Source: Lamellibrachia satsuma (lineage: Eukaryota; Annelida; Polychaeta; Sabellida; Siboglinidae). From it: 64,000 nucleotides of DNA. A program made the translations under genes and the position numbers. Below the pieces are notes generated by a model. That model was not told the origin of the DNA, did not search any database, and saw only the letters and a program-made list of their open reading frames with translations. The stretch lies in contig BSQZ01000002.1 of the NCBI GenBank assembly GCA_033239005.1, positions 3,552,501 to 3,616,500 on the forward strand, in the 5' to 3' direction. Below, piece after piece: positions 5,844-50,320 of the stretch (its first letter is position 1; each line of letters begins with the position of its first letter).

Positions 5844-6811
5844 TCAAGATAGGTCGAGTTGGTTCACAACTATGTTAAGGTGGCGGATGCTTGACATCTT
5901 GGGCGTTGTGACGTGGGCTATTGCACCGAGTAGCTTCGTTCTCAATTTCCTGTGCATAGACACTTCTCCCGGAGACTTGTAACCGCTTGACGATTTGTAT
6001 CGCCTTTTCCGTTTTCCCGTTACTCTGTGGGTACCTAGGATTGACCTATCTAACGCCTTCTTCAGTCTAGCGTCATGTTCTTCCCTCGTTCGTCCCCAGA
6101 CAACTGTGTCGCCCATGCAGACTCTTACTCCTGTCTCACACTCGAGTAGCTGGTGAACCTTGGCGTGGAACATTTCCGATGCACAGTTGATCCCATATGA
6201 AAGTCTTGTGAAGGAGTATCGCCCAAGAGGTGTAGCGACTGTGCATAACAGTGTACTCTCCTCGTCCAGTTGTGTCTGATAGATTCCCTGTGACGCATCC
6301 ATTTTCATGAAGTATTTCGCATCTGCCATTTTACTAAGAATGTCTTACCTATGTGGCAGGTGGTAGTGTTTACGTCTGATGTACTAGTTCTGGTCCATTG
6401 GGTCCAGACACAGTCTCAGATCGCCGTTGGGTTTCTCCACTATCACTAGTGGCAGCACCCAATCTGTTGGCTTATCGGCTTTGATAAGCACCCCGGTGTG
6501 TACGAGTGTGTCAAGTTCTTTTTTAAGCTTTGCCTTCTTTTCTTGTGGTACCTTTCTTGCAGGATACACTACGAGCAACAATTTTCACGCAGGTGACTCC
6601 TGCACTTCCATAGTCTTCTGAATATATATTTATACTCTTTCTTGATATACGTTCTTGTAAGTATACCCTCTTCTTCAACAGTGTACGCTCGTGTTACTAG
6701 ACCTAACCGCTCACAATCGTTGGCTCCAATTATTGACTGTGTCCCATTTGGCACAACTACACATTGTAGTGTCTGTTTCTTCCCATTGTGAGTGAGTGAG
6801 GCGATGCACAC
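5844..6811 (-). pseudogene. Ty3/gypsy-like pol relic (protease end to RT)
   Basis: Three overlapping or adjacent minus-strand frames read in pol order. The first (6569-6811) has an aspartic-protease-like tail with SIIGANDCERLGL. The second (6384-6581) has RT entry motifs VIVEKPNGDLRLCLDP. The third (5844-6329) has the RT palm: MDASQGIYQTQLDEES, GRYSFTRLSYGINCASEMF and EEHDARLKKAL. The position of the YxDD metal-binding box reads CMGD. RNase H, integrase, gag and LTRs were not found. Frameshifts separate the blocks, so the copy is inactive. The family match is by motif; the lineage within gypsy is not resolved. Confidence 0.8.
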
Positions 6812-9900: not shown

Positions 9901-10805
9901 TATAGTTATCGTGAGTCACTTACGAACTACCTTATTATTATTATGTCTGGGGGATGGGTAGTTTTGTTATAAGGTATATAGTTATCGTGAGTCACTTACG
10001 AACTACCTTATTATCATTATGTCTGGGGGATGGGTAGTTTTGTTATAAGGTATATAGCTATCGTGAGTCACTTACGAACTACCTTGTTATTATTATGTCT
10101 GGAGGACGGGTAGTTTTGTTATAAGGTATATAGTTATCGTGAGTCACTTACGAACTACCTTGTTATTATTATGTCTGGGGGAAGGGTAGTTTTGTTAGTA
10201 GGTATATAGTTATCGTGAGTCACTTACGAACTACCTTATTATTATTGTCTGGGGGACGGGTAGTTTTGTTAGTAGGTATATAGTTATCGTGAGTCACTTA
10301 CGAACTACCTTATTATTATTATGTCTGGGGGATGGGTAGTTTTGTTATAAGGTATATAGTTATCGTGAGTCACTTACGAACTACCATGTTATTATGTCTG
10401 GGGGATGGGTAGTTTTGTTATAAGGTATATAGTTATCGTGAGTCACTTACAAACTACCTTGTTATTATTATGTCTGGGGGACGGGTAGTTTTGTTAGTAG
10501 GTATAGTTATCGTGAGTCACTTATGAACTACCTTATTATTATTATGTCTGGAGGACGGGTAGTTTTGTTAGTAGGTATATAGTTATCGTGAGTCACTTAC
10601 GAACTACCTTATTATTATTATGTCTGGAGGACGGGTAGTTTTGTTAGCAGGTATATAGTTATCGTGAGTCACTTACGAACTACCTTATTATTATTATGTC
10701 TGGGGAACGGGTAGTTTTGTTATAAGGTAAATTATAGTTATCGTGAGTCACTTACGAACTACCTTATTATTATTATGTCTGGAGGACGGGTAGTTTTGTT
10801 AGCAG
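6930..10805. repeat. 76-bp satellite, about 51 copies
   Basis: The unit contains CGTGAGTCACTTACGAACTA, a (TTA)4 stretch, GTCTGGRGGACGGGTAG and TATATAGTTAT. Units differ by a few substitutions (GGAGGACG, GGGGGATG or GGGGGAAG) and by small indels (loss of one ATT, or TAAGG against AGTAGG). Variants recur in blocks, which suggests multi-unit duplication. Nearly every unit carries TGAGTCA, the consensus AP-1 (bZIP) site, inside the odd palindrome GTGAGTCAC. The left end (6931-6972) is an inverted pair of the same motif. The right end meets a SINE tail near 10805. Confidence 0.95.
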
Positions 10806-10965
10806 GTATACGTTCTAATACAGAGCACAGTATTCAGTTCATAGGACCACTCAAATTACTTTACACTTCAGCCCTGGAAGACCTGTTCATTCCAACACCA
10901 ACTCGACTTCTCTGGGAAGCATTCAGCCACACTGCAATTACTGCACAAAACAAACACTATGTTGT
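10805..10965 (-). mobile_element. SINE fragment (3' part)
   Basis: This shares the block GAAGCATTCAGCCACACTGC and its surroundings with the fuller SINE copies at 17629-17930 and 20130-20450. The tRNA-like head is missing. It abuts the end of the 76-bp satellite. Confidence 0.65.
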
Positions 10966-20200: not shown

Positions 20201-23200
20201 AGACCCATTCATTCCGACGGCATCTCGATTTCTTTGGGAAGCATTCAGCCACACTGCAATTACTGCACAAAGACCATTCGTTCACATATCCACCTGTGTC
20301 TATAGCCAGGTACTCATTTATACAGCTGAGTGAACTGAAGCAACGTGGAGTGAACAAAATTGCACAGGCTTTGAAATGGCAGCAGGAGGACTCGAACCCG
20401 GGTTCTCTTGATTGAGTCTAATGTTCTAACCACAGCGCCACATTGCCCCCAAAAAATTACACAGCAACATAAAGCTGATCTGTCTACAAATGAGCCTGCT
20501 ATCGATATGTTCACAAGAACAGGTAGTCTGCAATACTAGTATCGTGGCTAAGGCAGGCTTGGGCCACTAGGTGTCTTTGTACCTGTATGTGTGGCCAGTG
20601 GCCTCGTTTCGTGCGAGTATGTGCTCAACCATCCACTTGGGAGATATGCCTGCATTGTCGTGGCCAATTCTCAGCGTCGTCAGTATGCCCAAGTTCTTAT
20701 GCTGTAAGGTGAAACATGACATACAGAGAAAATAAACAGAGGACAAGCACTAAACGCATAGACATAGAATTGTGAAAACAACCTAATTCTGGGGGGTCAC
20801 CAGGTTCTGGTCACCGCAGGGGACAGGGCACCCCAGGGGATAGAACTGGTAAGTCATTTAATGCTGCCTCTTCAATTTATTTAATCCACTGCAACACATC
20901 TTATTTGATAAGTCAACATTTATTTACACATGGACTTTTTATTTTTATTATACAAATAAATAATAGACCGTGAGTACCAATCATTCTTCTCTAGGTTGAA
21001 GCAGGTAACCAGCATTTTGTTTCCTCCCCTCCAATTTCCACCCCTAATATTATCTAGAAGTAACATTCATGAGATCTCACATCGATGGTCAAGTCGAGGG
21101 TGTGTTTGGGGATGTTCACATGGCCTGTTTCTCCGAGCTGACCGGCCAAACACAGCCAGCAGTTGGCCGTTGTCGTACTGCCGCTCAACTGGCGCTGCCG
21201 AGGGAAGATCAGGATTCGGTAGGGAATACCTGAAACAGTAGCAGTTGACAGAAAAATGTGGTACTGAAAGTATATCATTTCATGAAGTACATTTTAGTCA
21301 TCGACTCGTGTCACTTTTTCCTCAATGACACAAACATCTTAGTCATGGACTCGTGCCACTTTTACCTCAATGACACAAACATCTTAGTCATGGACTCGTG
21401 TCACTTTTTCCTCAATGACACAAACATCTTAGTCATGGACTCGTGTCACTTTTACCTCAATGACACAAACATCTTAGTCATGGACTCGTGTCACTTTTAC
21501 CTCAATGACACAAACATCTTAGTCATGGACTCGTGCCACTTTTACCTCAATGACACAAGCATCTTAGTCATGGACTCGTGCCACTTTTACCTCAATGACA
21601 CAAACATCTTAGTCATGGACTCGTGCCGCTTTTACCTCAATGACACAAGCATCTTAGTCATGGACTCGTGCCACTTTTATCTCAATGACACAAACATCTT
21701 AGTCATGGACTCGTGCCACTTTTATCTCAATGACACAAGCATCTTAGTCATGGACTCGTGCCACTTTTATCTCAATGACACAAACATCTTAGTCATGGAC
21801 TCGTGCCGCTTTTATCTCAATGACACAAGCATCTTAGTCATGGACTCGTGCCACTTTTATCTCAATGACACAAGCATCTTAGTCATGGACTCGTGCCACT
21901 TTTATCTCAATGACACAAACATCTTAGTCATGGACTCGTGCCGCTTTTACCTCAATGACACAAGCATCTTAGTCATGGACTCGTGCCGCTTTTACCTCAA
22001 TGACACAAGCATCTTAGTCATGGACTCGTGCCGCTTTTACCTCAATGACACAAGCATCTTAGTCATGGACTCGTGCCGCTTTTACCTCAATGACACAAAC
22101 ATCTTAGTCATGGACTCGTGTCGCTTTTACCTCAATGACACAAGCATCTTAGTCATGGACTCGTGCCGCTTTTATCTCAATGACACAAGCATCTTAGTCA
22201 TGGACTCGTGACGCTTTTATCTCAATGACACAAGCATCTTAGTCATGGACTCGTGTCGCTTTTACCTCAATGACACAAGCATCTTAGTCATGGACTCGTG
22301 CCACTTTTACCTCAATGACACAAACATCTTAGTCATGGACTCGTGCCACTTTTACCTCAATGACACAAACATCTTAGTCATGGACTCGTGCCACTTTTAC
22401 CTCAATGACACAAACATCTTAGTCATGGACTCGTGTCACTTTTACCTCAATGACACAAACATCTTAGTCATGGACTCGTGCCACTTTTACCTCAATGACA
22501 CAAACATCTTAGTCATGGACTCGTGCCACTTTTACCTCAATGACACAAGCATCTTAGTCATGGACTCGTGTCACTTTTACCTCAATGACACAAGCATCTT
22601 AGTCATGGACTCGTGTCGCTTTTACCTCAATGACACAAGCATCTTAGTCATGGACTCGTGTCGCTTTTACCTCAATGACACAAACATCTTAGTCATGGAC
22701 TCGTGCCGCTTTTACATCAATGACACAAACATCTTAGTATTCACTTTTAACTTGTATTTTAAGTAGTATTTTAAGGTTATATCTTTTGTATATTAATTGT
22801 TAATATTATCTTAATGCTTTAAACATTTCAATGTATATTCCGTTATCTAAACTCCATGCATTAATGTTTTAGCATTGTAATTCACCTTTGAATGATCAAA
22901 AGCAGCCAGACTTATGGCAAAGACAAATATTATTACTATATTATTATTATTACACTTGTTGGCGAACGTGTTAACACATTTATTACATTTATTGGTGGAT
23001 GTGTTAACATATCACATGTAATAAATGATGGTAAATGACATAAACAACTAGGCTGGAATTAGTTTAGAATATGACAGTTTTACAACAAGTGCTGGTAAAC
23101 GTGTTAGTGAAACAACAGTAGTCGACTGCACTGAGTGAGAGTAGATAGAGGAACAACCTGTGTTGGTGAATGTGTTAGTGAAACAACAGTAGTAGACTGC

Positions 23201-26200
23201 ATTGAGTGAGAGTAGATAGAGGAACAACCTGTGTTGGTGAACGTGTTAGTGAAACAATGGTAGTCGACTGCGCTGAGTGAGAGTAGATAGAGGAACAACC
23301 TGTGCTGGTGAATGTGTTAGTGAAACAACAGTAGTAGACTGCATTGAGTGAGAGTAGATAGAGGAACAACCTGTGTTGGTGAACGTGTTAGTGAAACAAT
23401 GGTAGTCGACTGCGCTGAGTGAGAGTAGATGGTACAGGAACTACCTGTTTTGGTGAATGTGTTAGTGAAACAACAGTAGTAGACTGCATTGAGTGAGAGT
23501 AGATAGAGGAACAACCTGTGTTGGTGAATGTGTTAGTGAAACAACAGTAGTAGACTGCACTGAGTGAGAGTAGATGGTACAGGAACTACCTGTTTTGGTG
23601 AATGTGTTAGTGAAACAACAGTAGTAGACTGCATTGAGTGAGAGTAGATAGAGGAACAACCTGTGTTGGTGAACGTGTTAGTGAAACAATGGTAGTCGAC
23701 TGCGCTGAGTGAGAGTAGATGGTACAGGAACTACCTGTTTTGGTGAATGTGTTAGTGAAACAACAGTAGTAGACTGCATTGAGTGAGAGTAGATAGAGGA
23801 ACAACCTGTGTTGGTGAATGTGTTAGTGAAACAACAGTAGTCGACTGCACTGAGTGAGAGTAGATGGTACAGGAACTACCTGTTTTGGTGAATGTGTTAG
23901 TGAAACAACAGTAGTAGACTGCACTGAGTGAGAGTAGATGGTACAGGAACTACCTGTTTTGGTGAATGTGTTAGTGAAACAACAGTAGTCGACTGCACTG
24001 AGTGAGAGTAGATGGTACAGGAACTACCTGTTTTGGTGAATGTGTTAGTGAAACAACAGTAGTAGACTGCATTGAGTGAGAGTAGATAGAGGAACAACCT
24101 GTGTTGGTGAACGTGTTAGTGAAACAATGGTAGTCGACTGCGCTGAGTGAGAGTAGATGGTACAGGAACTACCTGTTTTGGTGAATGTGTTAGTGAAACA
24201 ACAGTAGTAGACTGCATTGAGTGAGAGTAGATAGAGGAACAACCTGTGTTGGTGAATGTGTTAGTGAAACAACAGTAGTCGACTGCACTGAGTGAGAGTA
24301 GATGGTACAGGAACTACCTGTTTTGGTGAATGTGTTAGTGAAACAACAGTAGTAGACTGCACTGAGTGAGAGTAGATGGTACAGGAACTACCTGTTTTGG
24401 TGAATGTGTTAGTGAAACAACAGTAGTAGACTGCACTGAGTGAGAGTAGATGGTACAGGAACTACCTGTTTTGGTGAATGTGTTAGTGAACAACAGTAGT
24501 AGACTGCATTGAGTGAGAGTAGATAGAGGAACAACCTGTGTTGGTGAATGTGTTAGTGAAACAATGGTAGTCGACTGCGCTGAGTGAGAGTAGATGGTAC
24601 AGGAACTACCTGTTTTGGTGAATGTGTTAATGAAACAACAGTAGTAGACTGCACTGAGTGAGAGTAGATGGTACAGGAACTACCTGTTTTGGTGAATGTG
24701 TTAGTGAAACAACAGTAGTAGACTGCACTGAGTGAGAGTAGATGGTACAGGAACTACCTGTTTTGGTGAATGTGTTAGTGAAACAATGGTAGTAGACTGC
24801 ACTGAGTGAGAGTAGATGGTACAGGAACTACCTGTTTTGGTGAATGTGTTAGTGAAACAACAGTAGTAGACTGCATTGAGTGAGAGTAGATAGAGGAACA
24901 ACCTGTGTTGGTGAACGTGTTAGTGAAACAATGGTAGTCGACTGCGCTGAGTGAGAGTAGATGGTACAGGAACTACCTGTTTTGGTGAATGTGTTAATGA
25001 AACAACAGTAGTAGACTGCACTGAGTGAGAGTAGATGGTACAGGAACTACCTGTTTTGGTGAATGTGTTAGTGAAACAACAGTAGTAGACTGCACTGAGT
25101 GAGAGTAGATGGTACAGGAACTACCTGTTTTGGTGAATGTGTTAGTGAAACAACAGTAGTAGACTGCACTGAATGAGAGTAGATGGTACAGGAACTACCT
25201 GTGTTGGTGAATGTGTTAGTGAAACAATGGTAGTCAACTGCATTGAGTGAGAGTAGATGCTGCAGGAACTACCTGTGTTGGTGAACGTGTTAGTGAAACA
25301 ATGGTAGTCGACGGCGTTGAGTGAGAGTAGATGGTAGAGGAACTGTTCTCTCTCGTCCTCACATCGGAGGAAGGCATACTTCTTGTAAAGACTCCTGCAA
25401 TCCCACCAAGAGGCAAAATCATTGACAGAATCACCTGGCATTATTAATGAACACACATCATGATATACATAAAAATTATTACAAAATGTGCTGTCCAGTT
25501 AATTGTCAAACTGTAGCTTAGACATTGGCAAGAATGAAGAAGAAATATGAAAAGAAGTAGGATTACATGAGGATTGGGCCTGGCTGCTTCTAGGATAACT
25601 ATGCGTTCCAGCATTAGATACCTTGATATGATCCCTGAAGCAATACACTACAAATATCACTAATTAAGCCACAACTATTAGGCACATAAAATATTTCTCA
25701 CATTTGTAACTTGCAAAAAATGTAAATAACCTTGTGTTACAGTCTTTACAGCCGGACCATTTTTTACCAGATCTGGATTTTTACTGGAATCTTGACCGGA
25801 CCTGGTAAAAATTAATTTAGTAGTTTGCCCGAAGATTTCACCAACACTAAATAACACATTTGTACAAATGAGTTAGTGTGCTGCAGTGGATACAAGAAAG
25901 GTTATTTTTTGCAAATTGAGTCTGAAATGAGACTACCAAAAAAAATGGAATAGCAGCGGGAGTTTTAACATTAACAAATGGCCTTCAACTTGACCTTGAA
26001 CTCACTTGGTGAGGTCACTGTTTGAGAGCAGCTCCTTGAAGTGTCTGGAGAGAAGTTTCTTCTCAAGGGCGAGTCTCACCCAAGCCCTTGCTCGCCCTAC
26101 GTCCGTACAGATGTCGGACATCTTCTGCACGTTCCTGGGCACATCAAAGCATTAACTTCACAAAATGTCCCCCGTCAACACCACAGCTTAGACTCAGGTG

Positions 26201-29200
26201 ACAACCATGCACAACGTTTTACTGTGTCACGTCAAACATTGCCCTCTCAATTTAATATTCTGTTAGGAAATGTGAGAGAAATAAACCGTCTATGTGTTCT
26301 TCAATATGATATATTGCCTACTATAAAAGTAGACAAGTCTATCTGGCTGCTCAAAATGTGCATGCAAAACTACATGACGAAATCTTGATGAACAAAGAAC
26401 AAAGGTCAGGGAAACGGGCAGTGGGGTGAGGATCTTACCTCATGTCAAAGGTCACGGACACGGGCAGTGGGGTGAGAACTGGGGTGTCGGGGGCGCGACT
26501 TGGTTTCTTCTTGTGCCTCCTGAGCGGCCATGTCTGCATGCCACTAGGACATGAGTCGTCGGCCTCCAGCGCCGCACTCGACAGGTCTAAAGGGTCACAA
26601 GAGTGAAAACAACATCATCATATACCAATTACAAACAAATACCCAGTATTGTTAGATAGTATCTGTTAGTAAAACTAGACAATCTGGCATGAAAGGAACA
26701 TTCTCTAGATTTTCCATTTGCGATAAAATACTTATCATATTATCTTGCAACATATATAGCTATTATCAATATGTTTTGTAATACAAACAAGGAATATAGC
26801 AGTGATCATGTACGAAGGTTGCGACTTTGCAGAATGATATAAAAACGCATTAGAGAAAATAAAAGTAATCTTCCCATTTTATGTTCAACAATTAAATATT
26901 ATCAGCACAGATTTCTGGTAAATACATATGTGGTATTATTATTTTTTTTCTAACATTATAAGTGTTTAATCAATAAACGTAAATTTAACACAAACAGTTT
27001 TTGATGCTCTACAAAAGAAAGCACTTTGATAGACATATTTCAAAAGTTCTGTTCACAAAGCTATAGCCACTTCTTGCGTTCTGCCTTCTCTTACTGTACA
27101 GATATATTTTAACGAGAGCGACATTACACTTAGTTTGAGGCATAAAAATTGTAATAAAATAAAATTATGTTTATTAGCAGCAGGATTTCTCTTGAGTTTT
27201 GAGATCCAAATCCTAACCATCCAACAGGAAGGTGAGCTGCCATCAAAAAAGTCATAAGTTTATTTGTAAATGTCATCATACACGAGATCAAAGTATAACT
27301 GTAAAAACAGACCAGACCGACAAAGTAAAAGTGAATCGAGCAGACCAACAAAACGGCACACAGAGACCACAGTGCCAAGCTGTGACAAGAGAAAGCACAC
27401 GACACATAGCGGGGAGATATTATGATGCCACTAAAGAAAGGCAGACAGCGACTTCATCGCAGTCTAGGAAATCAATAACACTATTACGTCGTCTTGGATG
27501 GCTCCTGGCCACATCACGTTCACTAACAGGATTTGGCACCAACTGCACACGTGTTGGGTTGTCATACTGACCATATCACCATATCTTGTATTTTATTCAG
27601 TTCAAACAGGTCTGAAGACCCAGTAACAGGACTGATAACAAAATGACTGTCCTTTGGCTCACAAAACGGGTGCAACTGACTACACACATTTTGCTCTAAC
27701 CACCCTAGTCATATGGGTTTATTTGCCCCACAGGGAAAAGATGTTTTGCTAGGAGGCAGACATGTTAGAAGCCTGCATCAAATCTCATGACCACTACGTT
27801 TTTGAACTAGGAGTTTCCCAAACCCTATGGGAGTACTCCCTATCCCCAGAATGTGATACTCTAATTCCTTTTTGTTACAATAAAACATAATAATCAATAA
27901 AGAATAATAAAAAAACACAGAGATGGTTGCAAAACTATCACATAAAGAATGCCAAGAACAGACAGCAAGTGATGAAATTAGCATCAACAGCAGGTCTTCA
28001 GAAACAGAGATAAATACACAAAAATCTACTAAAAACAGCAAAACATCACTGATTACATCCATGTCTGAACAGGGCAATGAAAATTGTGCACGGTCATTGA
28101 TTCTAAGAATAACTGCAAATGCAAAACCTTCTACCATAAAAGATAAAGAACCATATTTAATTATGTCTTAGAGATTGGAGAACAAACCAAAAGAGAAATG
28201 AATTTCATCAACACTGTGTAAGAAAAAAAAACAGCAAGCAATAACGCAACTGAAGATGTGTATACTACGGGACACCAACACGAACGTCACACAGATTACG
28301 GTGAGCGTTGACACGTACAGTCGAATCTCTTACGCAGGATACACCACGCTAGCGCTGTGTTGAGGAGAAGGTATATTAAATAGCGATGTTACACACTTTC
28401 ATCAGGCATATGACAGAGGCAAATATTCTGTACTGTCATCAGCGGATGTCGATACATAAACGTTGTAGTTTTTCTCTATCAAACGTTCAAAACACACCCG
28501 GAAAATCTATCGGACACATGTACATAAGATGTCCCAGTATTCATTTTGTAGTTTAGTCGTGGCATCGTACTAAAATGAATTCTTGCAAAATATTATCGGA
28601 CAGATTGCCAATAAATCATTCGCAAAAATTGGATATGAGAAAACATGTTTATGAATGGTCCAAATGTGTTTTTTTTGTGGAAATGGTCAAGTAATGCCGA
28701 TATACAATACAGGCAGAACAGCAAAAGCATTGGCTGAGTGGTTTCCTCGATAGCAAAGGTGGGGGAGTTAGCGTGAATGCCCCGAACCCTTTCCCTAGCA
28801 GAGGGTGTGGCTGGCCAAGCTCGGAGTGGCACATGATGCAGGGAAGGGGGACTTACGCATGAAACACAACCAGCTTTCGATGTCTGGCAAAACAAGACAA
28901 GTTAGAGTGACACGTTCTAATTTAGTATGCGTTTGCACAGTTCATGATTGCTAGAAAAACTAATGGGCTGTTCTAGCAATAGTGAGCCAGTCTACTGTCA
29001 ACATTAAAACATGGAGAAAAAAAAATTATTTTTTAAATGTATCAAAACCTTGCTGGATATGCATACATTTTTGTTGAACTTTTTTAAGATGTGACAGTTA
29101 TTAAAATAAGCTATATCATGAGCAGCTGTTAAATGTTTTTAAGATATTTCATTAAATGCTATGTGAATAGTATTATACTGGAATATCATGCGTTTGCTAA

Positions 29201-32200
29201 GAATAAAGTATTTAAGACTTGTTTGTAGTCTCTGTCTGCTGGTAGTATGTCACAGTACAGTCAGACAAACGCTGCAGTTTTATCCATGACTGATACATAA
29301 AACTGTCCCTGGCTCCACAGATGGTAGAACAACCCGGAAGAATTTACACAACTATACTGATTATGCACAACGTGTTTAACTTGCATAGAAACATTCTAGG
29401 GTCACCATTCAGTGAATGACATTAGAAGAAAACACTTGTGCAGTTAAAACTCTCTCCTCAATTCATTTTTCCAACACAAATGAGGTTTGTTGATGTTCAA
29501 ATCTGTAATGTGTTAATGGTTTAAGTATTATGAACTTTTCGATTGTTAGATCGGGTAATTTGTGAGGCAGAGCCACTTTCGCCATTTTTCCGCTGATTTC
29601 CTACTGATAAAAAATAATTTAATACTATGTCCAATGATTTCACCAAAACTAAATAACAAATTTAGATACTAGGTATGTTTTTCGTGAAATGAATCTGTAA
29701 CGAGACAAAACTGAATTGAGGAGAGACCTTAAACAGTTGTTTTGTAGTGTTGCCTTTTCTTTGCAAACGACATGGTCAACCTTAGGCTAGTGGCAGAGAC
29801 TTCCATCTTAAACTGTACATTTGTTTCTTACATAAGTCCACACTGGCTGTTAACATAACCACTGCACTCATCACACAATCTTATTTTGTCGATGTTGCAA
29901 AAAAGCTACAACTATCATAAAATGTGAAGACAATCAACAAGAGTGAATTCTACTATCATAAGTTATTATTTTATTATATCTCATGATATAAAACGAATAT
30001 AGTAACACCAGGAAAAAATTTAAATATATATGTCAGAAACAGACTGGAGTACGAGAATTGTATGCTTTGTCTTATGACAGATTTTGTAAATTTACAAAAT
30101 TCATCACAAATTATCCGAAGCTTCCCGACCAATAATATTGAAACAACTGATGATGTTACAGTGCTGCCACCTACCAGGGGTGAGTAGATTGGGGTCGATG
30201 GGTCTGTTGCTGTCGTTGCACTGTTCCACCTCCTGGTAACTGAGCAGATGAGACCAGAGATCAGAGCGGCCCTGGAGGGGTAAATACCACACTTGAAGGG
30301 GGAGAAGTTAAAATGTTCATTCAGTGTTGCCCATGGGGGGATTTCTGTTATTTTCATAATTATTTATGTACAGTTTCCAGTTTCCCAAATGTCACTGTGG
30401 ACTCATGCAACATTTGTGCATTTTCAACAAAAGTTTTACCTACAACTTGCGGTTTTAAACAAAAGTTTCTTCAGTTAAATACTTTCATCTTACCACAATG
30501 ATTAATTTTCTGGAGTCAATATACACTAAGCCACTAACAGCCCACAAAAGCTAAACGTAAAACAACTCACTGAAAAGCATCCTTTAGGAAACCTATTCAG
30601 TTTCAAACAATTACAGCTAGCCATACAGTTAACAAATGTCCTGTCCTGTCAGTATAAAAATATAATGAAATCACAGCCACTTGATGTCAATCATTCAGTC
30701 ACTGTCAATCAGCCAGTCACTGTCAATTAGCTTGTCACTGTGAATCATTCAGTCGCTGTCATTCGTTCAGTTACTGTCAATCCTTCAGTCGTTGTCATTC
30801 GTTCAGTCACTGTCAATCCTTCAGTCGCTGTAAATCCTCCAATCAATGTAAATCATTTTGTCAATGTCAATCCTTCAATCACTGTCAATCCTTCAATCAC
30901 TGTCAATCATTCAGTAGCTGTCAGTCATTCAGTCACTGTCAATCATTAAATCACAGCCAATCATTAAGTCACTGTCAATTATTCAGTCATTGTCAGTCAT
31001 TCAGTCACTGTCAATCATTCTGCCATTGTCAATCATTGAGTCACAACCAATCACTCAGTCACATTCAACATTCAGTAACTGTCAATCAGTCTGCCACTGA
31101 CAATGATTCTCCCACTGTCAATAATTTTCCTACTGTCAGTCATTGCCAATCATTCTCCCACTGTCAGTCATTCAGTCACTGTCAATCATTCAATCACAGC
31201 CAATCATTAAGTCACTGTCAATCATTCAGTTGCTGTCAATCATTCAGTCACTGTCAATCATTCAGTCTCTGTCAATCATTCAGCCGCTGTCAATCATCCA
31301 GTGGCTGTCAATCACCTGCTTTGACTGCACCCCATGGCCCCAGGTGCGTTCAAACATGTCGCACATACTGGCTATGAGGGTGTTCTCCTCCACCCCTGTT
31401 ATGGTGATCTCTCCATGCCCCAGCTCCACCGCCTCCTGACCCATCTTCTCCACCAACATCCGCTTCGTCTGGAATGTTACATTCACATGTCATCAAGCTG
31501 AGTTCTTCATTTAAAAAATTTTAGGTGTTATTTATATTTTTTTGCATTTATATTTTTTACTTTTAAGCCAATGACTACCTTGTCCACTTGCCATCTGGGC
31601 CTTTGCCTTGGATGGTAATCTTGCTCAACCTTGTTAAACGGGTTGGGACTTGGTCAAATTGTTCCTTATATCCAACGTTCCTTACATCCAAGGGTACATA
31701 AACCAGCCAGGCCAGAATGGGGAATTGTTTCTTCTGAGTCCCTATAGCGCGAGTCCACTTTAAATTTATTTGTTGTAAGCTCAAATTTAAGTTAAAATTT
31801 AATATAATCATGCAATTGTGCAGGATCCATTTAAAATCTAAAAAGTCTGAATCAATGAGTAATTACACATATTTCAAGCATGACTGACTCATAGTTCAAC
31901 TATAAAATGCACTCGTCTAGGATTACCAACAATATTTTAGGTTTTCCTAACCACTTCACAGTAAATAAGTGCTTCCTCAGTGCTAATCTGGGGAATGTCT
32001 GTAGAGGACAAGAAATCCACCACAAATCTGTCTCGGTCTTCAAACAAGATCCAGATTATTTTACAATGTAGCATTTCCAAGTTTGTCCGTTACATCACTT
32101 TGACATTTCCACAAATAAATGTGAATTTTTAAACACAATTACATTTATTTATTTTGACTTTTTAAAATTTTTAACAGAACGTTACTAATAAAAAATTATG

Positions 32201-38200: not shown

Positions 38201-41200
38201 TTTGGAATTGGTATTTTGGAAATGGTAAAAATGTAATTAGTATTTTCACTTATTTTTCAATGACTTTTTAACTTAAATTACTTGCTACAAATAATCAATA
38301 AAATATTTGATATGTTGTGAATATCATAATTATGTTTGCCATTATGTATTACAATATGCAGAAATTAAATAAAGCTGCTCTCAGATAGATGTTATATTTT
38401 AGCGTTGAATATATCTATGGCTGCTCTGTTCACTTTTATTTAGATATGGAATTAATAATTGGAACTGTTTTTTATTTAATTGGACCTGGTATTTTTGAGG
38501 GAATTGGAAATTGTAATTGGTGTGGAATTCGAATTGATATAATGTAATTGACTGCAAGTGACCACACATGTCACATCTCTCGTTTTCTGTCCAATTAAAG
38601 GACGATGATATGGGGGGTTTCCACATAATTAAAATGCAAAAATTCTCTTACTTTTTTTCATCGGAAAGTACCTCATATATTTAAATTAACAATGTTACAC
38701 TTCAAGTTTTTATTTTTATTGCTGCGATATATTTACCGTCATAAATTGTGCAATAATGGATTTAAAATTTTCTTCCCCCCTTGCCAATTGACGCCATCTT
38801 TCTTTTTCAGTTGCAGCAGTGATTATTTTACAGCACAATGTAACATCGAACTTATTAGTGTTTACCACATCTCAGTTGGTTAAAAGTAACAACCATAAGA
38901 AATGTGAATCAAATAACTTTCATTTTACATATCCAAGGTGTGTTTAGTTTACCTGGTAGAGGCTTTCATCAACGTGTCACGTTGATTTCATCAGTACCTA
39001 TGACGCTTGATGACGTCATCGTACACGTGAGGCAGTTCATAATTGCCCTCGTCTCTGTTGATGGGTGTTCTAGTTTTTCTGATCCAGATGGCTTCTTTGT
39101 GCCGGATTCTTCGGTTGGGTTCCTTGTCTACAAAGTTCACTCCCTCCCAGTCTATGATGTGGTTTTCAGTTGTCGCATGGTCTGTAAGGGCGGATTTATT
39201 GATGGTAGACATCAATCTTTTTTTCCCGCTCCTTGTGTATTTCTCTTTTTTCGTGTTGCCTACATCCTTTCTGTGTTCCTCCAGTCGTGTTTTTAGTAGT
39301 CTTCCTGTCTCCCCAATGTACTCAGCACCACAGTTCTTGCATGGTATTTGGTACAACAGTTCACCCTGTTCTTCTAGCTCTACTTTGTCCTTGGGATGTA
39401 CCAACAAGCGCCTGAGGGTGGTGTGGGGATGCATAGCTGTTGCTACTCCATATTTCTTCAGTACTCGATGTACTCTCTCTGAGACCCCCTCTACGTATGG
39501 GATGACTACTTGGCTCCTGTAATTTCTGTCATTTGTTTTTTGTTGTTCTTTTTCTTCTTACAGCTATCTGTCACCTTGTTCAAGGCCCAGGACAGATAGC
39601 CACATACTCTTAGAGCTTCTCTCAAGTGTTCCATCTCTTCCTTCTTGTCCCCCTCCTCTGAAGTTATCGTCTCACACCTGTGCATAAGGGTTCTGACCAC
39701 TCCTAACTTCTGATGTTTGGGGTGGTGGCACGCAAAGTTCAAGTATTGGTCGGTGTGTGTCTTCTTCCTGTACACTGTAGACTTCACACTGCCATCTTCC
39801 TTTCTGGTGAACTTCGCATCCAGGAAGGGCATGCTGTTGTTCTCTTCATCTTCCCGCATGAAAATGATGCTCCCTGTGGGGTCTACAGTGTTCATGGGTT
39901 GTTGTAATTTCTTTGCCTTTCCCGTGTGTACCAGGCAAATTACATCGTCCACATATCGTTTCCAGTTTCTCGGTTGGCAATCTACTGGTGCTGTTGCTAT
40001 TATTTTCTGCTCCAGGTTCTCCATGTACAAGTTGACAACAATGGGGTATACCGGACTGCCCATGGCTACTCCAAATTTCTGCTGGTAAATTTCTCCTTCA
40101 AATCTGAAGTATGTCGTCTCCAGGACACATTTCAACAACCCCATGATGTCGTCTACGTTTAGGTTTGTTCTCTTCTTTAGTGTCTTGTCATTCTCTAGCC
40201 TTTTTCTGATGATTTCGCACGCTTCTTTGATCGGGGTCTTCGTGAACAGCGACACAACATCATAGAACACCCATCAACAGAGACGAGGGCAATTATGAAC
40301 TGCCTCACGTGTACGATGACGTCATCAAGCGTCATAGGTACTGATGAAATCAACGTGACACGTTGATGAAAGCCTCTACCAGGTAAACTAAACACACCTT
40401 GGATATGTAAAATGAAAGTTATTTGATTTGAAAATGAACTATCCTGAAGAATGTTCAGGAAAATAAGAAATGTGCTTTAAGTGCTATCGTAATCTTTCGT
40501 CTCTTCATATTTTCTTAAATACATGTTTCCTGTTTAAAATAAAATAAGTCAGATTTATAGTAGTTTGCAAATCTTTTAATTTCTTTATGTTCTAAATGCA
40601 TAGATTTATACCAGGTTTAAATGAAGAGTACTTGCTCCAAGAGCATACTTGTGAACACACCGACCATGTTGAGGCTTACCTTCGGAGTAGAGGAGCAATT
40701 GGTGCTCCAAGAGCATAATTGTGAACACATTGACCATGTTGAGGCTTACCTTCGGAGTAGAGGAGCATTTGTTGCTCCAAGAGCATAATTGTGAACACAC
40801 CGACCATGTTGAGGCTTACCTTCGAAGTAGAGGAACAATTGGTGCTCCAAGAGCATACTTGTGAACACATTGACCATGTTGAGGCTTACCGTTGGAGTAG
40901 AGGAGCAATTGGTACACCAATAGCATACTTGTGAACACATTGACCATGTTGAGGCTTACCTTCGGAGTAGAGGAGCATTTGTTGCTCCAAGAGCATAACT
41001 GTGAGTAGCATTTGTTGCTTCAAGAGCATACTTGTGAACACACCGACCATGTTGAGGCTTACCTTCGAAGTAGAGGAACAATTGGTGCTCCAAGAGCATA
41101 CTTGTGAACACATTGACCATGTTGAGGCTTACCTTCGGAGTAGAGGAGCATTTGTTGCTCCAAGAGCATATTTGTGAACACACTGACCATGTTGAGGCTT

Positions 41201-42410
41201 ACCTTCCGAGTAGAGGAGCATTTGTTTCTCCAAGAGCATAATTGTGAACACACTGACCATGTTGAGGCTTACCTTCGGAGTAGAGGAGTATTTGGTGCTC
41301 CAAGAGCATACTCGTGAGCACACTGAGCAGATTGTCAACACCAAGCAGATCGAGAGTTTCTCTGAGAGATCCGTCAAACAGAGGCAGCTCCATGATTCCT
41401 ACGATGCAACACACGGTTACTTGAGGTAAATTATTACAACTAGCAAAATCTTGTAACATTCTGATGCTTAGGATTAATTTCAAAACATTGATATAATGCA
41501 TTTGTAATTTTATTTTTTATTGTAAAACATATACAAACGTTACACAGAATTTTTAACAAAACGACAGACACATAAATAAACACCTTACCCTGTGCTAACA
41601 ACGCAGACGACAAATCGGCTGCTTCATGATAAAAGGTGACAAGATCCTGATAGATTTTAAAGTTGAAATATAAATCAAAGTGAATATTGTTTTCCAACTA
41701 ACCATCATCATCTCTATGAACAACAAACTTTCAAGCAACACCAAATTTATTTCTTCGCATTAAAAACAAGACATGCAAGAAAAATTCACGAGTTGGACAG
41801 AGATTTGTTTACTGTATATCTAGAAAACGCGCATAAAAGCATCATTTATACTGACTGAACACCTACCTGGTCTTTGGCACACAATGGTTCCTCCTGGCAC
41901 GTAGAACTTCAAACTGCGGCCTGTCGGGGGAAGCGGAACCTCATTGATAATGTTATACACGTAACTCTCAAGTGATAAACTGCTTCCATCACTAGGTGGC
42001 ACCACAACGACTGCCAGCAACGACCGCAGTAGCTGCTCGAACGTCCATATTAGCTGCAGCTGAGAAATGACGCAGATGCATTTGGTGACGTAAAGGGCAT
42101 CGCGTCCCATGTCATAAACCTTTCCGACGGTCGACGCTTCCACCCGATGGCCCAACTTCGGACTGCGCCGGTAGACGGGACCCAAGTGGGAATAGAGGGT
42201 TCGGGACTGAGCGTTGCTACATTCAGCCAAGTGCATCTCTTGCAGGGTCTGCATCGCCGTGTGGATCTGTCGACTGTCCACCTCCTCGTAGAACGTGAGG
42301 GCAGCACCGTATGCCCTCGTGCCATCCTCCTTCGTGATGAGGAATGAGTGAAATCGCGGCTCGCTCGAGTCTTTTTGTGAGCGGAAACGCAGGCCGAACG
42401 GGTGACAGAG
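14083..42410 (-). CDS. DENND5: DENN domain-containing protein 5 (Rab GEF), 20 exons, 5' end missing
   Basis: Join, in transcript order (minus): 42410-41867, 41398-41273, 37800-37616, 36423-35625, 34829-34667, 33606-33516, 32481-32362, 31468-31316, 30271-30175, [optional 28883-28857], 26586-26439, 26134-26006, 25394-25273, 21229-21081, 20701-20583, 19996-19899, 19208-19137, 18320-18238, 17620-17494, 17021-16847, 14266-14083. All introns are GT-AG and all phases match; 3684 nt gives 1227 residues plus stop. Order: uDENN (partial), cDENN, dDENN, RUN1, PLAT, RUN2, as in human DENND5A (about 1290 aa). In this family the DENN module is a Rab guanine-exchange factor (Rab39 reported) and RUN1 binds Rab6 on Golgi and endosomal membranes. 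Roughly 80 N-terminal residues are missing. The paralogue (A or B type) cannot be assigned; invertebrates usually have one. Confidence 0.95.
15059..16817. mobile_element. DNA transposon with CAGACCTGCCAA ends and 6-bp target duplication
   Basis: Left end CAGACCTGCCAA and right end TTGGCAGGTCTG are perfect inverted ends, flanked by the direct repeat TGAAAG (15053-15058 and 16818-16823). Subterminal CTTCCGCTTTT / AAAAGCAGAAG motifs extend the similarity. The inner 1.7 kb has no transposase I can recognise. GGACGGGTAAA repeats lie at about 15420-15490. A 6-bp duplication is reported for superfamilies such as IS3EU, but a class call on these ends alone is not safe. It sits inside the last DENND5 intron. 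Confidence 0.75.
16847..17021 (-). CDS. DENND5: DENND5 exon 19: RUN2
   Basis: The acceptor is GTTTTGTTTGCAG and the donor GTCAG|GTATGC; phase 1 in, phase 2 out. It encodes [19 protein letters not shown] and [15 protein letters not shown], matching GKDGKFQMLVCLGARD. A 1.76-kb DNA element ends 28 bp past the donor. Confidence 0.95.
17494..17620 (-). CDS. DENND5: DENND5 exon 18: RUN2
   Basis: The acceptor is CTTTACGTTGACAG and the donor CCTTG|GTGAGT; phase 0 in, phase 1 out. It encodes [25 protein letters not shown] and [11 protein letters not shown], matching the family's [20 protein letters not shown]...FIWDFLE. Confidence 0.95.
17629..17930 (-). mobile_element. tRNA-derived SINE abutting the exon 18 acceptor
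   Basis: Same family as 20130-20450. The head (GCGCAGTGATTAGACCG, then GGTTCGAATCTTC as a B-box) is near 17925-17870. The body contains TGCAGTGTGGCTGAATGGTT. The 3' end TATATAAGAACCTATCTTTA is only about 10 nt from the AG at 17622-17621, so most of the polypyrimidine region of intron 17 derives from the SINE tail. Confidence 0.8.
18238..18320 (-). CDS. DENND5: DENND5 exon 17: start of RUN2
   Basis: The acceptor is ACAATATTTTGTAG and the donor AAGGAG|GTGGGT; phase 1 in, phase 0 out. It encodes [12 protein letters not shown] and [15 protein letters not shown], matching IGEAVNGIVKHFHKPEKE. Confidence 0.94.
18561..18690 (+). mobile_element. Possible LINE 3'-end fragment
   Basis: Related to 1790-1915 and 46828-46945, with GGACGATAAATGAATAGAAA, then AAAAATAAAATTGACAGATA and TCTGATAAGGGCGGG. 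Decayed and only inferred to be LINE. Confidence 0.35.
19137..19208 (-). CDS. DENND5: DENND5 exon 16: inter-domain linker
   Basis: A 72-nt exon with acceptor ATACTTTCTGCAG and donor CGCAA|GTACGT; phase 1 in and out. It encodes [20 protein letters not shown], matching the family's CRTPP...SPS linker between PLAT and RUN2. Skipping would keep the frame. Confidence 0.88.
19899..19996 (-). CDS. DENND5: DENND5 exon 15: PLAT end
   Basis: The acceptor is TTATGTCCTGCAG and the donor AGAAG|GTGAGA; phase 2 in, phase 1 out. It encodes FPCGRWLGK and [14 protein letters not shown], almost identical to the vertebrate segment, then a variable PETNPE. Confidence 0.95.
20130..20450 (-). mobile_element. tRNA-derived SINE
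   Basis: On the minus strand it starts GGGGGCAATGTGGCGCTGTG then GTTAGAACAT (A-box-like), and has GGTTCGAGTCC (B-box) about 45 nt in, as in a tRNA promoter. A body shared with 17629-17930 follows, ending TATATAAGAATATATC. It lies in DENND5 intron 14 in the gene's own orientation. It is not a functional tRNA: no acceptor stem pairing was found. Confidence 0.85.
20583..20701 (-). CDS. DENND5: DENND5 exon 14: PLAT
   Basis: The acceptor is GTTTCACCTTACAG and the donor ATACAG|GTACAA; phase 0 in, phase 2 out. It encodes [28 protein letters not shown] and RNEATGHTY, the second half of the PLAT beta-sandwich. It is too short to be picked out as an open frame on its own. Confidence 0.95.
21081..21229 (-). 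CDS. DENND5: DENND5 exon 13: start of PLAT
   Basis: The acceptor is GCTACTGTTTCAG and the donor ATCGAT|GTGAGA; phase 1 in, phase 0 out. It encodes [19 protein letters not shown] and [18 protein letters not shown], matching IPYHILIVP...GELGET-IMQIP in the lipase-like PLAT domain. Confidence 0.95.
21293..22735. repeat. 45-bp tandem repeat in DENND5 intron 12
   Basis: About 32 copies of CTTAGTCATGGACTCGTGYC followed by RCTTTTACCTCAATGACACA and ARCAT. Because 45 is a multiple of three, the plus strand reads as a 15-residue peptide repeat for hundreds of codons (21258-22211 and 22245-22766, split by one TGA). It starts about 60 bp from the exon 13 acceptor and is not derived from any exon I found. 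Confidence 0.96.
23088..25272 (-). repeat. 71/74-bp minisatellite made of exon 12's 3' end and splice donor
   Basis: About 30 intronic head-to-tail copies of the exon 12 tail. Each encodes a version of [21 protein letters not shown] and ends ACAG|GTTGTTCC (71-bp type) or ACAG|GTAGTTCC (74-bp type). The two types alternate in runs, indicating higher-order duplication. The unit is almost wholly exonic, and the donor lies at the unit junction. Neither unit length is a multiple of three. Short overlapping minus frames of about 65 codons arise from the exon-derived coding and are not separate genes. Confidence 0.96.
25273..25394 (-). CDS. DENND5: DENND5 exon 12: end of RUN1
   Basis: The acceptor is GGTGGGATTGCAG and the donor ACACAG|GTAGTT; phase 2 in, phase 1 out. 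It encodes [33 protein letters not shown] and TFTNT, matching the RUN1 exit. The last 73 nt form the unit of the large minisatellite at 23088-25272. The donor at 25272-25271 is the first of about 31 near-identical donors. Confidence 0.95.
26006..26134 (-). CDS. DENND5: DENND5 exon 11: RUN1
   Basis: The acceptor is TTTGATGTGCCCAG and the donor ACCAA|GTGAGT; phase 2 in and out. It encodes [30 protein letters not shown] and [12 protein letters not shown], the hallmark helices of RUN1 in this family. Confidence 0.96.
26439..26586 (-). CDS. DENND5: DENND5 exon 10: RUN1 loop
   Basis: The acceptor is TTGTGACCCTTTAG and the donor ATGAG|GTAAGA; phase 1 in, phase 2 out. It encodes a variable basic segment ([18 protein letters not shown]) and VSVTFDM, which continues into the family's DMR-IQ. 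A 31-bp piece of the exon end is copied just below the donor (26401-26425 on the plus strand), again reproducing exon tail in the intron. Confidence 0.85.
28857..28883 (-). CDS. DENND5: Candidate DENND5 27-nt microexon
   Basis: The pyrimidine-rich acceptor TTGTCTTGTTTTGCCAG and the strong donor ATGC|GTAAGT bracket exactly 27 nt. Phase 1 in and out fits exon 9 (ends phase 1) and exon 10 (starts phase 1). Inclusion adds nine residues around IESWLCFM in the variable RUN1 loop, with no stop. This could be an alternative microexon of the kind common in neuronal transcripts. I know of no specific counterpart, and a chance splice-site pair is possible. Confidence 0.45.
30175..30271 (-). CDS. DENND5: DENND5 exon 9: RUN1
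   Basis: The acceptor is TTTACCCCTCCAG and the donor CCCCTG|GTAGGT; phase 0 in, phase 1 out. It encodes [10 protein letters not shown], matching ALWSHLLHYQ in the family, then a variable loop ([13 protein letters not shown]). Confidence 0.93.
30670..31315. repeat. 18-bp tandem repeat starting at the exon 8 donor
   Basis: About 35 copies of TCAATCATTCAGTCACTG. Read on the gene strand the unit is CAGTGACTGAATGATTGA, and the exon 8 donor CAG|GTGATTGACAG is continuous with it. Some copies carry CTTCAGTC or GCCGCTG changes. Confidence 0.95.
31316..31468 (-). CDS. DENND5: DENND5 exon 8: start of RUN1
   Basis: The acceptor is GTAACATTCCAG and the donor AGCAG|GTGATT; phase 0 on both sides, 51 codons. 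It encodes [33 protein letters not shown] and WGHGVQSKQ, nearly identical to the vertebrate RUN1 entry. The donor is the first unit of an 18-bp repeat array. Confidence 0.96.
32362..32481 (-). CDS. DENND5: DENND5 exon 7: pre-RUN1 helix
   Basis: The acceptor is GTGTCTCTTCCAG and the donor CTAAG|GTGAGG; phase 0 on both sides, exactly 40 codons. It encodes [11 protein letters not shown] and [12 protein letters not shown], matching KYIQEAR...EGLLKECRNK in the family. Because it is in phase 0 at both ends, skipping would keep the frame. Confidence 0.93.
33097..33505. repeat. Dispersed hairpin repeat, one copy plus a partial duplicate
   Basis: It starts AAATTGGGCCATGG and contains TCTGTTCTTATAAGCG. 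It has a self-complementary core: AACAACTGAAAAGTG near 33250 and CACTTTTCAGTTGTT near 33294. It ends near ATTATGGATCCTGCTTATTA. A 44-bp piece is doubled at 33116-33190. A second, partial copy with the same core lies at 33353-33505. Other copies are at 36825-37066 and 58663-58905. Confidence 0.8.
33516..33606 (-). CDS. DENND5: DENND5 exon 6: basic linker
   Basis: The acceptor is TTGTTTGTCAG and the donor AAGAG|GTCAGT; phase 2 in, phase 0 out. It encodes [17 protein letters not shown] and LSSSQKE, matching the family's QWRRKDRQKQHTEHL linker that leads to RUN1. A dispersed hairpin repeat (33353-33505) lies about 10 bp beyond the donor. Confidence 0.93.
34062..34460. repeat. 13-15-bp GATGAATAAGTA array in DENND5 intron 5
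   Basis: About 28 degenerate copies of GATGATAAATAAGTA or GATGAATAAGTA. It gives long Ile/Leu-rich reading frames on the minus strand, which are artefacts of the repeat. Confidence 0.9.
34667..34829 (-). CDS. DENND5: DENND5 exon 5: linker after dDENN
   Basis: The acceptor is TTGATTTGCAG and the donor AACAA|GTAAGC; phase 1 in, phase 2 out. It encodes [17 protein letters not shown], a variable stretch, then [18 protein letters not shown], corresponding to the family's FPKLQ/SDVL block. Phases fit both neighbours, which supports it even where sequence similarity is low. Confidence 0.85.
34985..35341. repeat. 22-bp tandem repeat in DENND5 intron 4
   Basis: About 16 copies of TTTCTTTTACAACTATAGCT + AC. 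The minor variants are ATAACT, ATATTT and AGATAC. Confidence 0.95.
35625..36423 (-). CDS. DENND5: DENND5 exon 4: end of cDENN, linker and dDENN
   Basis: This is the largest exon. The acceptor TTTTTCTACAACAG precedes [11 protein letters not shown]; the donor is GGAG|GTAGGT; phase 0 in, phase 1 out. [10 protein letters not shown] is the cDENN exit. A Ser/Asp-rich linker follows (a run of [20 protein letters not shown]), where this family varies. Then comes d[38 protein letters not shown] and [15 protein letters not shown]. Confidence 0.95.
36515..36828. repeat. 45-bp tandem repeat in DENND5 intron 3
   Basis: About seven nearly identical copies of TAATAAGCACACAGTATACT followed by TTAAAACAAATTACCG and TATTCTATC. 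It begins about 90 bp from the exon 4 acceptor and ends against a dispersed hairpin repeat at 36825. The near identity suggests recent expansion. Confidence 0.95.
36825..37066. repeat. Dispersed hairpin repeat, third copy
   Basis: Same family as 33097: AAATTGGGCCATG, TGTTTAACACTAGTGGTGTC, the degraded hairpin core and ATTATGGATCCTGCTTATTA. It extends to GGGGCTGTATGCTAATTAG, which the 58-kb copy shares. Confidence 0.8.
37616..37800 (-). CDS. DENND5: DENND5 exon 3: cDENN
   Basis: The acceptor is TGTATGTTGCAG and the donor CTAAG|GTATGG; phase 1 in, phase 0 out. It encodes [21 protein letters not shown] and [15 protein letters not shown], the most conserved cDENN signature, then [12 protein letters not shown]. 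The intron upstream (37801-41272) holds the Penelope-like insertion and the exon 2 minisatellite. Confidence 0.95.
37930..38225. repeat. About 115-bp tandem repeat in DENND5 intron 2
   Basis: Three direct copies with TTTATACACAGATGCCATCT, AACATTACATTCCAGGTA and TCCAGATTTGGAATTGGTA, with minor changes. Confidence 0.85.
38991..39525 (-). pseudogene. Penelope-like GIY-YIG endonuclease domain
   Basis: In a different frame from the RT. It starts near [15 protein letters not shown] and continues through [39 protein letters not shown] and [14 protein letters not shown] to the stop at 38991-38993. YQIPC...YIGETGR is the GIY-YIG nuclease core of these elements, here with the preceding CxxC. The last 27 codons fall in the inverted repeat. 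Confidence 0.92.
39506..40270 (-). pseudogene. Penelope-like reverse transcriptase, N-terminus missing
   Basis: The open frame starts within the RT at [13 protein letters not shown] (the DV-SLFT motif), then [29 protein letters not shown] (catalytic YVDD intact) and MPFLDAKF. The first third of the RT is absent because the element is truncated at 40262, next to its inverted end. The frame ends at 39506 after an A-rich run (KKKKNNKK); a frameshift there separates it from the endonuclease. Confidence 0.92.
40620..41272 (-). repeat. 70-bp minisatellite made of exon 2's 3' end and splice donor
   Basis: Eight head-to-tail copies, each with the exon 2 tail (encoding a version of [11 protein letters not shown]), the donor GAAG|GTAAGCC and intron CTCAACATGGTCA. 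The repeat junction falls at GTCAGTGTG, which resembles CTCAGTGTG inside the exon. One unit (about 40981-41030) contains a partial internal duplication. Units differ by few substitutions and the donor is kept in all. It fills the start of intron 2. Confidence 0.95.
41273..41398 (-). CDS. DENND5: DENND5 exon 2: cDENN strand-helix block
   Basis: The acceptor is TTGCATCGTAG; it starts [11 protein letters not shown], continues [10 protein letters not shown] and ends [11 protein letters not shown] at GAAG|GTAAGC. This matches the ELPLFD...LLE-QILLYS segment of DENND5 cDENN. Its last 49 nt plus about 21 nt of intron are copied eight more times downstream (40620-41272). Reading past the true donor meets TAA at 41201-41199, inside the donor of the next copy, so only the exon-proximal donor is productive. 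Confidence 0.93.
41867..42410 (-). CDS. DENND5: DENND5 exon 1 found: uDENN and start of cDENN
   Basis: The acceptor TTCTCTGTTCCATGCAG precedes [13 protein letters not shown]; the donor is CCAG|GTAGGT; phase 0 in, phase 1 out. It carries the uDENN core ([20 protein letters not shown], then FYEEV), a linker with an AMQTLQEMH helix, [13 protein letters not shown] and the [11 protein letters not shown] turn that leads into cDENN. The ATG at 42416 overlaps the acceptor and is not the real start, since family members have about 80 residues before this point. No upstream exon was recognised. Confidence 0.93.
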
Positions 42411-50116: not shown

Positions 50117-50320
50117 AAGATTGGGATGCAGCACATCCTGGTGGGAAGAATAGGAAGAAGCCGGATGACATGGGCAGGTCACTTGGTGCGGATGGAGGAG
50201 GGCCAACTACCAAAGACAGCAGAGGTGATGAAACAGCGAGGCCTTAGGAAAAGGGAGAAGACTGCAACTGAAATGGGAGGACTGCGTAAAGAGGGATGTA
50301 AGAAAGGCAGGTGACAAGTG
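50117..50320 (+). pseudogene. LINE ORF2 C-terminal fragment
   Basis: Two frames together read the typical ORF2 tail: RMTWAGHLVRMEEGQLPK, then in the next frame RRLQLKWEDCVKRDVRKAG and DKWREKAVDREKR. WAGH-VRM, KWEDCVKRD and KWREKA-DR are hallmarks of the C-terminus of many invertebrate LINEs. A frameshift near 50245 breaks it. The tail continues straight into the 60-bp minisatellite. Confidence 0.85.

Follow-up and report, generated by a model that had tools for sequence, protein, structure and literature searches.

In amphioxus, minisatellite-like tandem copies of exon-intron boundaries, termed mirages, have been described in several genes (Adh, globin, TnC and PGBD5), and many of the repeats carry AG/GT signals (PMC3087553, PMC3902484; statements about published systems refer throughout to the parts of the cited papers that were available). 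RT-PCR (reverse transcription-polymerase chain reaction) data for amphioxus Adh3 and globin are said to suggest undisturbed splicing (PMC3087553, PMC3902484). In the human CBS gene, a 31-bp variable number tandem repeat (VNTR), c.1444_1467+7(16_21), comprises by its notation the last 24 coding and 7 intronic nucleotides, and the donor is repeated too (PMC2630376). A close variant is the VNTR in intron 18 of human ABCA7, which begins at the donor, the first VNTR GT being the true donor (PMC5954066). We analyzed a 64,000-nucleotide stretch of the annelid Lamellibrachia satsuma (assembly GCA_033239005.1, contig BSQZ01000002.1, positions 3,552,501 to 3,616,500; hereafter the window, whose coordinates are used below), which contains the gene DENND5 on its minus strand. 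The tail of exon 12 of this gene, together with its donor, is followed in intron 12 by 30 further copies, and exon tails were also copied into introns 2 and 10. The preliminary description of the intron 12 array implied that it was unique; instead, the architecture is already known from amphioxus genes and human CBS, splicing has been measured for the array at the ABCA7 donor, and DENND5 is a large, recurrent further case.

Like the mirages, the DENND5 arrays are tandem repeats derived from exon-intron boundaries, with splice signals inside the repeats: AG/GT in 29 of the 30 intronic units of intron 12, and eight /GTAAGC boundaries in intron 2 (in longer motifs the slash marks the boundary). 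The amphioxus globin gene has few copies (6 and 3 in two haplotypes) compared with 30 in intron 12, and in amphioxus both 5' and 3' boundaries are affected, whereas only 5' splice sites are among the 19 introns of DENND5. As in the CBS repeat, the DENND5 unit consists of the coding end of an exon plus the first intronic bases (53 + 17 nt in intron 2, 72 nt plus GT in intron 12), and 31 likewise is not a multiple of 3; however, the CBS unit is shorter, its copies are fewer (16 to 21), and it is polymorphic in people (PMC2630376). The 25-bp unit of ABCA7 starts at the intron GT and is not described, in the available text, as exon-derived; a later donor is sometimes used there, with out-of-frame retention of 25 nt, and VNTR length is linked to exon skipping and disease (PMC5954066). 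Minisatellite units at exon-intron boundaries also alter intron structure in human segmental-duplication genes (27 intron modifications), but these repeats have on average 30-bp units in 4 copies, and alternative transcripts are seen there (PMC2812944). In intron gain by tandem duplication, too, the duplication spans a splice-site-like AGGT, and a fission yeast case has several 24-bp copies; there a new intron arises, whereas the copies in DENND5 lengthen an intron from its 5' end. The human CBS repeat was reportedly also treated by Lievers et al. in 2001.

What is new here is the 70-74-bp unit, a copy number above that of CBS, the involvement of three introns of one gene, and the annelid host. 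No annelid report of such an array was found in the open-licence literature examined, and earlier reports elsewhere are possible. The available intron and repeat passages of a Ridgeia genome paper do not mention such arrays, and a C. elegans minisatellite paper, in its available part, is not about exon-derived units. A DNA pattern had no match in bacterial and archaeal contigs, as expected.

The features of intron 12 and its flanking exons are as follows.

25273..25394, minus strand: DENND5 exon 12 (122 nt); the array derives from its last 72 nt
25271..25272, minus strand: the GT in ACAG/GTAGTT, which is the true (first) intron 12 donor and, among 31 boundaries tested, the sole one to give the full-length frame
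23087..25272, minus strand: array of 30 units derived from the exon 12 tail, 29 of them ending in an intact AG/GT donor
23087..23157, minus strand: last unit, with the decayed boundary CACTT/GTTGTAAAA, a candidate original start of intron 12
21289..22738, minus strand: second array of intron 12, 45-bp units in about 32 copies
21081..21229, minus strand: exon 13 (149 nt, so that its skipping would shift the frame), acceptor TTTCAG/GTATTC

Tandem Repeats Finder (TRF) reported a period of 74 with 30.9 copies at 23093-25344. Cutting at every donor yielded 31 units, namely unit 0 within exon 12 (25346-25273) and intronic units 1-30 (25272-23087), in agreement with the roughly 31-fold amplification of an exon tail and its donor that had been noticed previously. 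In Smith-Waterman comparisons the tail of exon 12 scored 129 against its own intron, and three shuffles scored 16-19; all intronic units are 80-93% identical to the exon tail. The derivation from exon 12 is thus as first described, but the source is 72 nt long and not 73, as positions 3-74 of the 74-bp unit align to the end of the exon and the leading GT does not. Nineteen intronic units are 74 bp long, ten are 71 bp and one is 70 bp, and the longest exact direct repeat within the array is 437 bp, which bears out the two unit types and the block duplication proposed in the preliminary description. This internal repeat also suggests recent turnover of the array.

Including the true donor, the 31 boundaries read ACAG/GTAGTT in 19 cases, ACAG/GTTGTT in 11, and ACTT/GTTGTA, the decayed form, once at the far end. 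The claim of about 30 near-perfect decoys fits these counts: 29 later donors are intact, and 18 of them are identical to the true donor over ten bases, -4 to +6. The companion claim, that the units encode most of a 21-residue peptide and end in a donor, fared unevenly; the donors are there, but the peptide is not continuous through the array, because none of the unit lengths (74, 71 and 70) is divisible by 3, and unit 2 contains a stop. The codon-position count for the array was 42, 53 and 114, from units that are not independent.

Mean identity to all other units is 85.9 for the exonic unit, 88.7 for unit 1 and 85.3 for unit 30, and that of the inner units lies between 90.0 and 93.7, except for unit 28 at 88.6. 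The edge units of the intron 12 array are therefore among the least homogenised, as in amphioxus mirages, where the cluster edges escape homogenisation; this comparison was made for intron 12. The same figures bear on the idea that an assembler inflated a short duplication. In such an artefact one would hardly expect 17 distinct sequences among the 31 units, separate arrays in introns 2 and 12, or units 0 and 30 as the most diverged, and we regard it as extremely unlikely.

At the true donor, the stretch from +3 to +9 (AGTTCCT) likewise resembles exon sequence, and exon 12 reads ACAGTTCCTC at the position where the unit reads GTAGTTCCTG. The present true donor looks like a duplication junction, with an intronic GT followed by exon-like bases. 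The GTTGTAAAAC at the far end of the array is probably the start of the older intron 12. We consider it probable that the array is a minisatellite of the mirage type that arose by tandem duplication across the 5' splice site, and that the first donor prevails, with a little unproductive leakage. A tandem duplication with one breakpoint in exon 12 and the other at most a few bases from where intron 12 begins would have copied the tail along with the GT. Amplification to 30 copies would have followed through unequal exchange and block duplication, and the copies would have become intron. The array would be tolerated because the first donor wins, and would be mostly neutral freight.

The same kind of event is seen elsewhere in the gene.

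41273..41398, minus strand: DENND5 exon 2, from which the intron 2 array derives
40633..41272, minus strand: intron 2 array of eight exon 2 tail copies and a partial last copy (widest range given, 40633-41326)
26400..26430, minus strand: one copy, decayed, of the tail of exon 10 near the start of intron 10, identical at 29 of 31 nt to 26446-26476

The intron 2 array has seven units of 70 bp and one of 103 bp; the composition of the 70-bp unit, 53 exonic and 17 intronic nucleotides, was obtained by reading the units. Its eight later /GTAAGC boundaries follow GAAG in seven cases and AACG in one. No second donor was seen on reading the sequence of the intron 10 copy. Also in intron 2, open reading frames (ORFs) on the minus strand at 38991-40273 look, in translations read by eye, like a Penelope-type reverse transcriptase with a GIY-YIG-like part.

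When each exon tail was compared to the downstream intron, exons 2, 10 and 12 scored 84, 52 and 129, whereas the remaining 16 tails scored at most 19 and the best of 57 tail shuffles reached 27. The end of the upstream exon is thus copied into the intron in three of 19 introns. No copy of the start of the downstream exon was found in any of the 19, the best head scoring 21 (heads were not shuffled). Some exon ends used in these tail and head comparisons lie 1-3 nt off those of the final model, and the scores are from those ends. The copy in intron 10 scored 54, compared to a maximum of 31 in 1000 shuffles.

We also determined where tandem arrays begin and end, using ten hand-merged TRF rows (period of at least 10, score of at least 100), one of which was not intronic; the duplication in intron 10 is absent from the TRF rows. 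Three of the nine intronic arrays (introns 2, 8 and 12) start within 5 nt of a donor, a result matched in 3 of 100,000 random placements; none of the nine ends within 5 nt of an acceptor. The array of intron 8 (18-bp unit, 30685-31314) begins at the donor, 1 nt inside the intron. It was ruled out as an exon-tail case and is not counted as one, because it has no similarity to exon 8, whose tail scored 16. These results support repeated growth of DENND5 introns from the 5' end. The preliminary description gave a largely sound account of the array in intron 12, but missed the sister copies in introns 2 and 10 and the donor-like sites of the second array in intron 12. That second array contains 21 exact GAG/GTAAAA sites on the sense strand, and the two arrays together make up 3636 of the 4043 bp of intron 12. 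Between the 45-bp array and the opening 80 nt of exon 13 no link was found (score 16; only tails had been shuffled). On the strand opposite to the gene, it contains a 320-codon open frame (21289-22738).

The DENND5 model joins 20 exons across 19 introns. Exon boundaries were placed at GT/AG sites according to the L. satsuma protein; the resulting single open frame is identical to that protein in 1215 of 1229 alignment columns. The best among the protein matches listed (at least 120) is "DENN domain-containing protein 5A [Lamellibrachia satsuma]". The exon pair flanking the array matches Rab6-interacting protein 1 (3cwz; E 4.7e-38), and two larger exon stretches contain uDENN, DENN and dDENN according to Pfam. 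Exon 12 (25394-25273) joins exon 13 (at 21229) in frame, as in the L. satsuma protein, which confirms the location first given for exon 12. At 42411-42416, where the L. satsuma protein record begins with "MQ", the window reads ATGCAG, which looks like an exon acceptor; the record probably lacks N-terminal exons.

In the final gene model, use of the first donor of intron 12 keeps the full frame to codon 1227. All 30 later exon 12 boundaries, 29 of them intact, introduce a stop (codon 923 or 935), as do all eight later exon 2 donors (codon 307 or 247); every one of the 38 later boundaries tested therefore gives a premature stop. Both first-donor junctions, YSE-D and TNT-GIPY, are present in the L. 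satsuma protein. Exon 12 would then be spliced mainly at its first donor, probably because that donor is transcribed first, is captured by the U1 small nuclear ribonucleoprotein (snRNP) associated with RNA polymerase II (Pol II), and yields the exon of least length. A minor fraction of transcripts would use a later donor, most likely the second, and would probably be removed by nonsense-mediated decay. As a precedent, the two frame-shifting events of human ABCA7, a cryptic acceptor and one-unit retention, are given as 14% and 2%, respectively, and such transcripts rise with cycloheximide (PMC5954066).

Several points weigh against this reading. First-donor use is read from the open frame and from the junctions of the guide protein. 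The frame is open partly by construction, because the model was fitted to GT/AG sites under guidance of that protein, and two earlier drafts, with wrong boundaries elsewhere, contained stops. Donor strength gives the first site no advantage. The true donor of intron 12 forms a U1 duplex of -7.8 kcal/mol and has the same sequence as 18 decoys, the 11 GTTGTT decoys being weaker at -5.6 kcal/mol; in intron 2 the true donor (-9.5 kcal/mol) shares its sequence with seven of eight decoys, and one is weaker (-8.2 kcal/mol). These energies were computed once per distinct donor sequence. When equal donors compete, classical work often shows a preference for the one closest to the acceptor, contrary to what first-donor use requires. 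Finally, donor motifs are not enriched in minisatellites in 200 kb of another contig of the same genome (1 of 35 arrays, 3 of 35 in the reversed control), and in the window plus 10 kb the motif is found in 1 of 16 arrays, that of intron 2, compared to none of 16 reversed; this test is weak and has little power, because the GTAGTT donors of intron 12 would also escape its motif. The sample thus gives no sign of a process general to the genome.

RNA structure might distinguish the donors if GTAGTT decoys were hidden in a 5-bp ACAGG-UAGUU-CCUGU hairpin and the true donor in a 4-bp one, the open GTTGTT decoys being weak for U1. Local folds of -6.1 kcal/mol for one decoy and -4.5 kcal/mol for the true donor agree with this, and with a 30-nt flank the estimated net U1 binding was best at the true donor by 0.17 kcal/mol, none of 29 decoys being better. 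However, 25 of 29 decoys were better with a 60-nt flank and all 29 with a 100-nt flank, and the true donor of intron 2 was never the most accessible across three flank lengths. Since the effect reverses with longer flanks, hairpins were rejected as the main cause of donor choice, and concealment of the decoys by structure seems very unlikely.

Donor strength being no better at the first site and RNA structure not robust, position is left as the basis of donor choice. The first donor is transcribed first, lies nearest to the exon's own acceptor, and appears to be nearest to the purine-rich part of the exon, which is missing from the units (purine fraction 0.58 in the first 48 nt of exon 12; mean of 0.38 in the units). 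In human cells, a nascent 5' splice site remains paired with Pol II-tethered U1 during intron synthesis (PMC8316553), which would give an advantage to the first donor if the same holds for DENND5.

A different outcome would follow if the decoys were often used: transcripts that retain units, and with them stops, would form a sink that sets the DENND5 level and scales with copy number, and a longer array would cause more skipping of the next exon. The 18 decoys identical to the true donor and the premature stops from all later boundaries are compatible with this, as is ABCA7, where the longer the VNTR, the more the downstream exon is skipped (3.2-fold between the extreme lymphoblastoid-line samples; PMC5954066). 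Retention of a single unit, on the other hand, does not change with VNTR size in ABCA7 (PMC5954066). The peptide encoded by the array was also not found in protein databases, where such proteins are rarely expected (2 candidates in one search, none with E of at most 10; 56 candidates in a second, none with E of at most 0.01). Frequent decoy use is in our judgment unlikely.

The array could also function as a U1-binding platform that protects a long intron from premature polyadenylation (telescripting) or aids splicing. It offers 29 intact decoy donors, and the only two AATAAA of intron 12 lie 165 and 174 nt past the last intact one; of the putative intronic 5' splice sites to which U1 and Pol II bind, most reportedly lie up to 1000 bp upstream of cryptic polyadenylation signals (PMC8316553). 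Yet introns 9 and 19 are long and contain AATAAA without any TRF array scoring at least 100, and array turnover accounts for the sequence without selection, so that we give such a function hardly any credence. Slightly better placed, although still quite improbable, is a combination in which introns were repeatedly lengthened at their donors (three of 19, with one decayed copy, 8 extra donors and 29, respectively) and the resulting U1-binding arrays are put to use, as a copy-number-dependent sink or as a polyadenylation shield. The reading we prefer remains the neutral minisatellite spliced at its first donor.

Other repeats and ORFs were seen in the window. A 3.9-kb array (6948-10810; 76-bp unit, 51 copies) lies downstream of DENND5, and a 60-bp repeat of about 16 copies (50312-51247) is open on the plus strand, with a 295-codon frame. 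By eye, the ORF at 157-609 on the plus strand reads like a non-LTR (long terminal repeat) reverse transcriptase, and that at 5844-6344 on the minus strand like a Gypsy-type reverse transcriptase.

Intron 12 amounts to a natural competition experiment, in which a single acceptor faces the true donor and 18 decoys that are identical over ten bases and nearly evenly spaced. Intron 2 provides a second replicate in the same gene, with seven decoys that share the same AAG/GTAAGC. Counts of donor use would measure to what degree the first site is favoured by the order of transcription or by the length of the exon, which has long been a question in the study of splicing. The three stages found in this one gene can be lined up as a possible course of intron growth from the 5' end.

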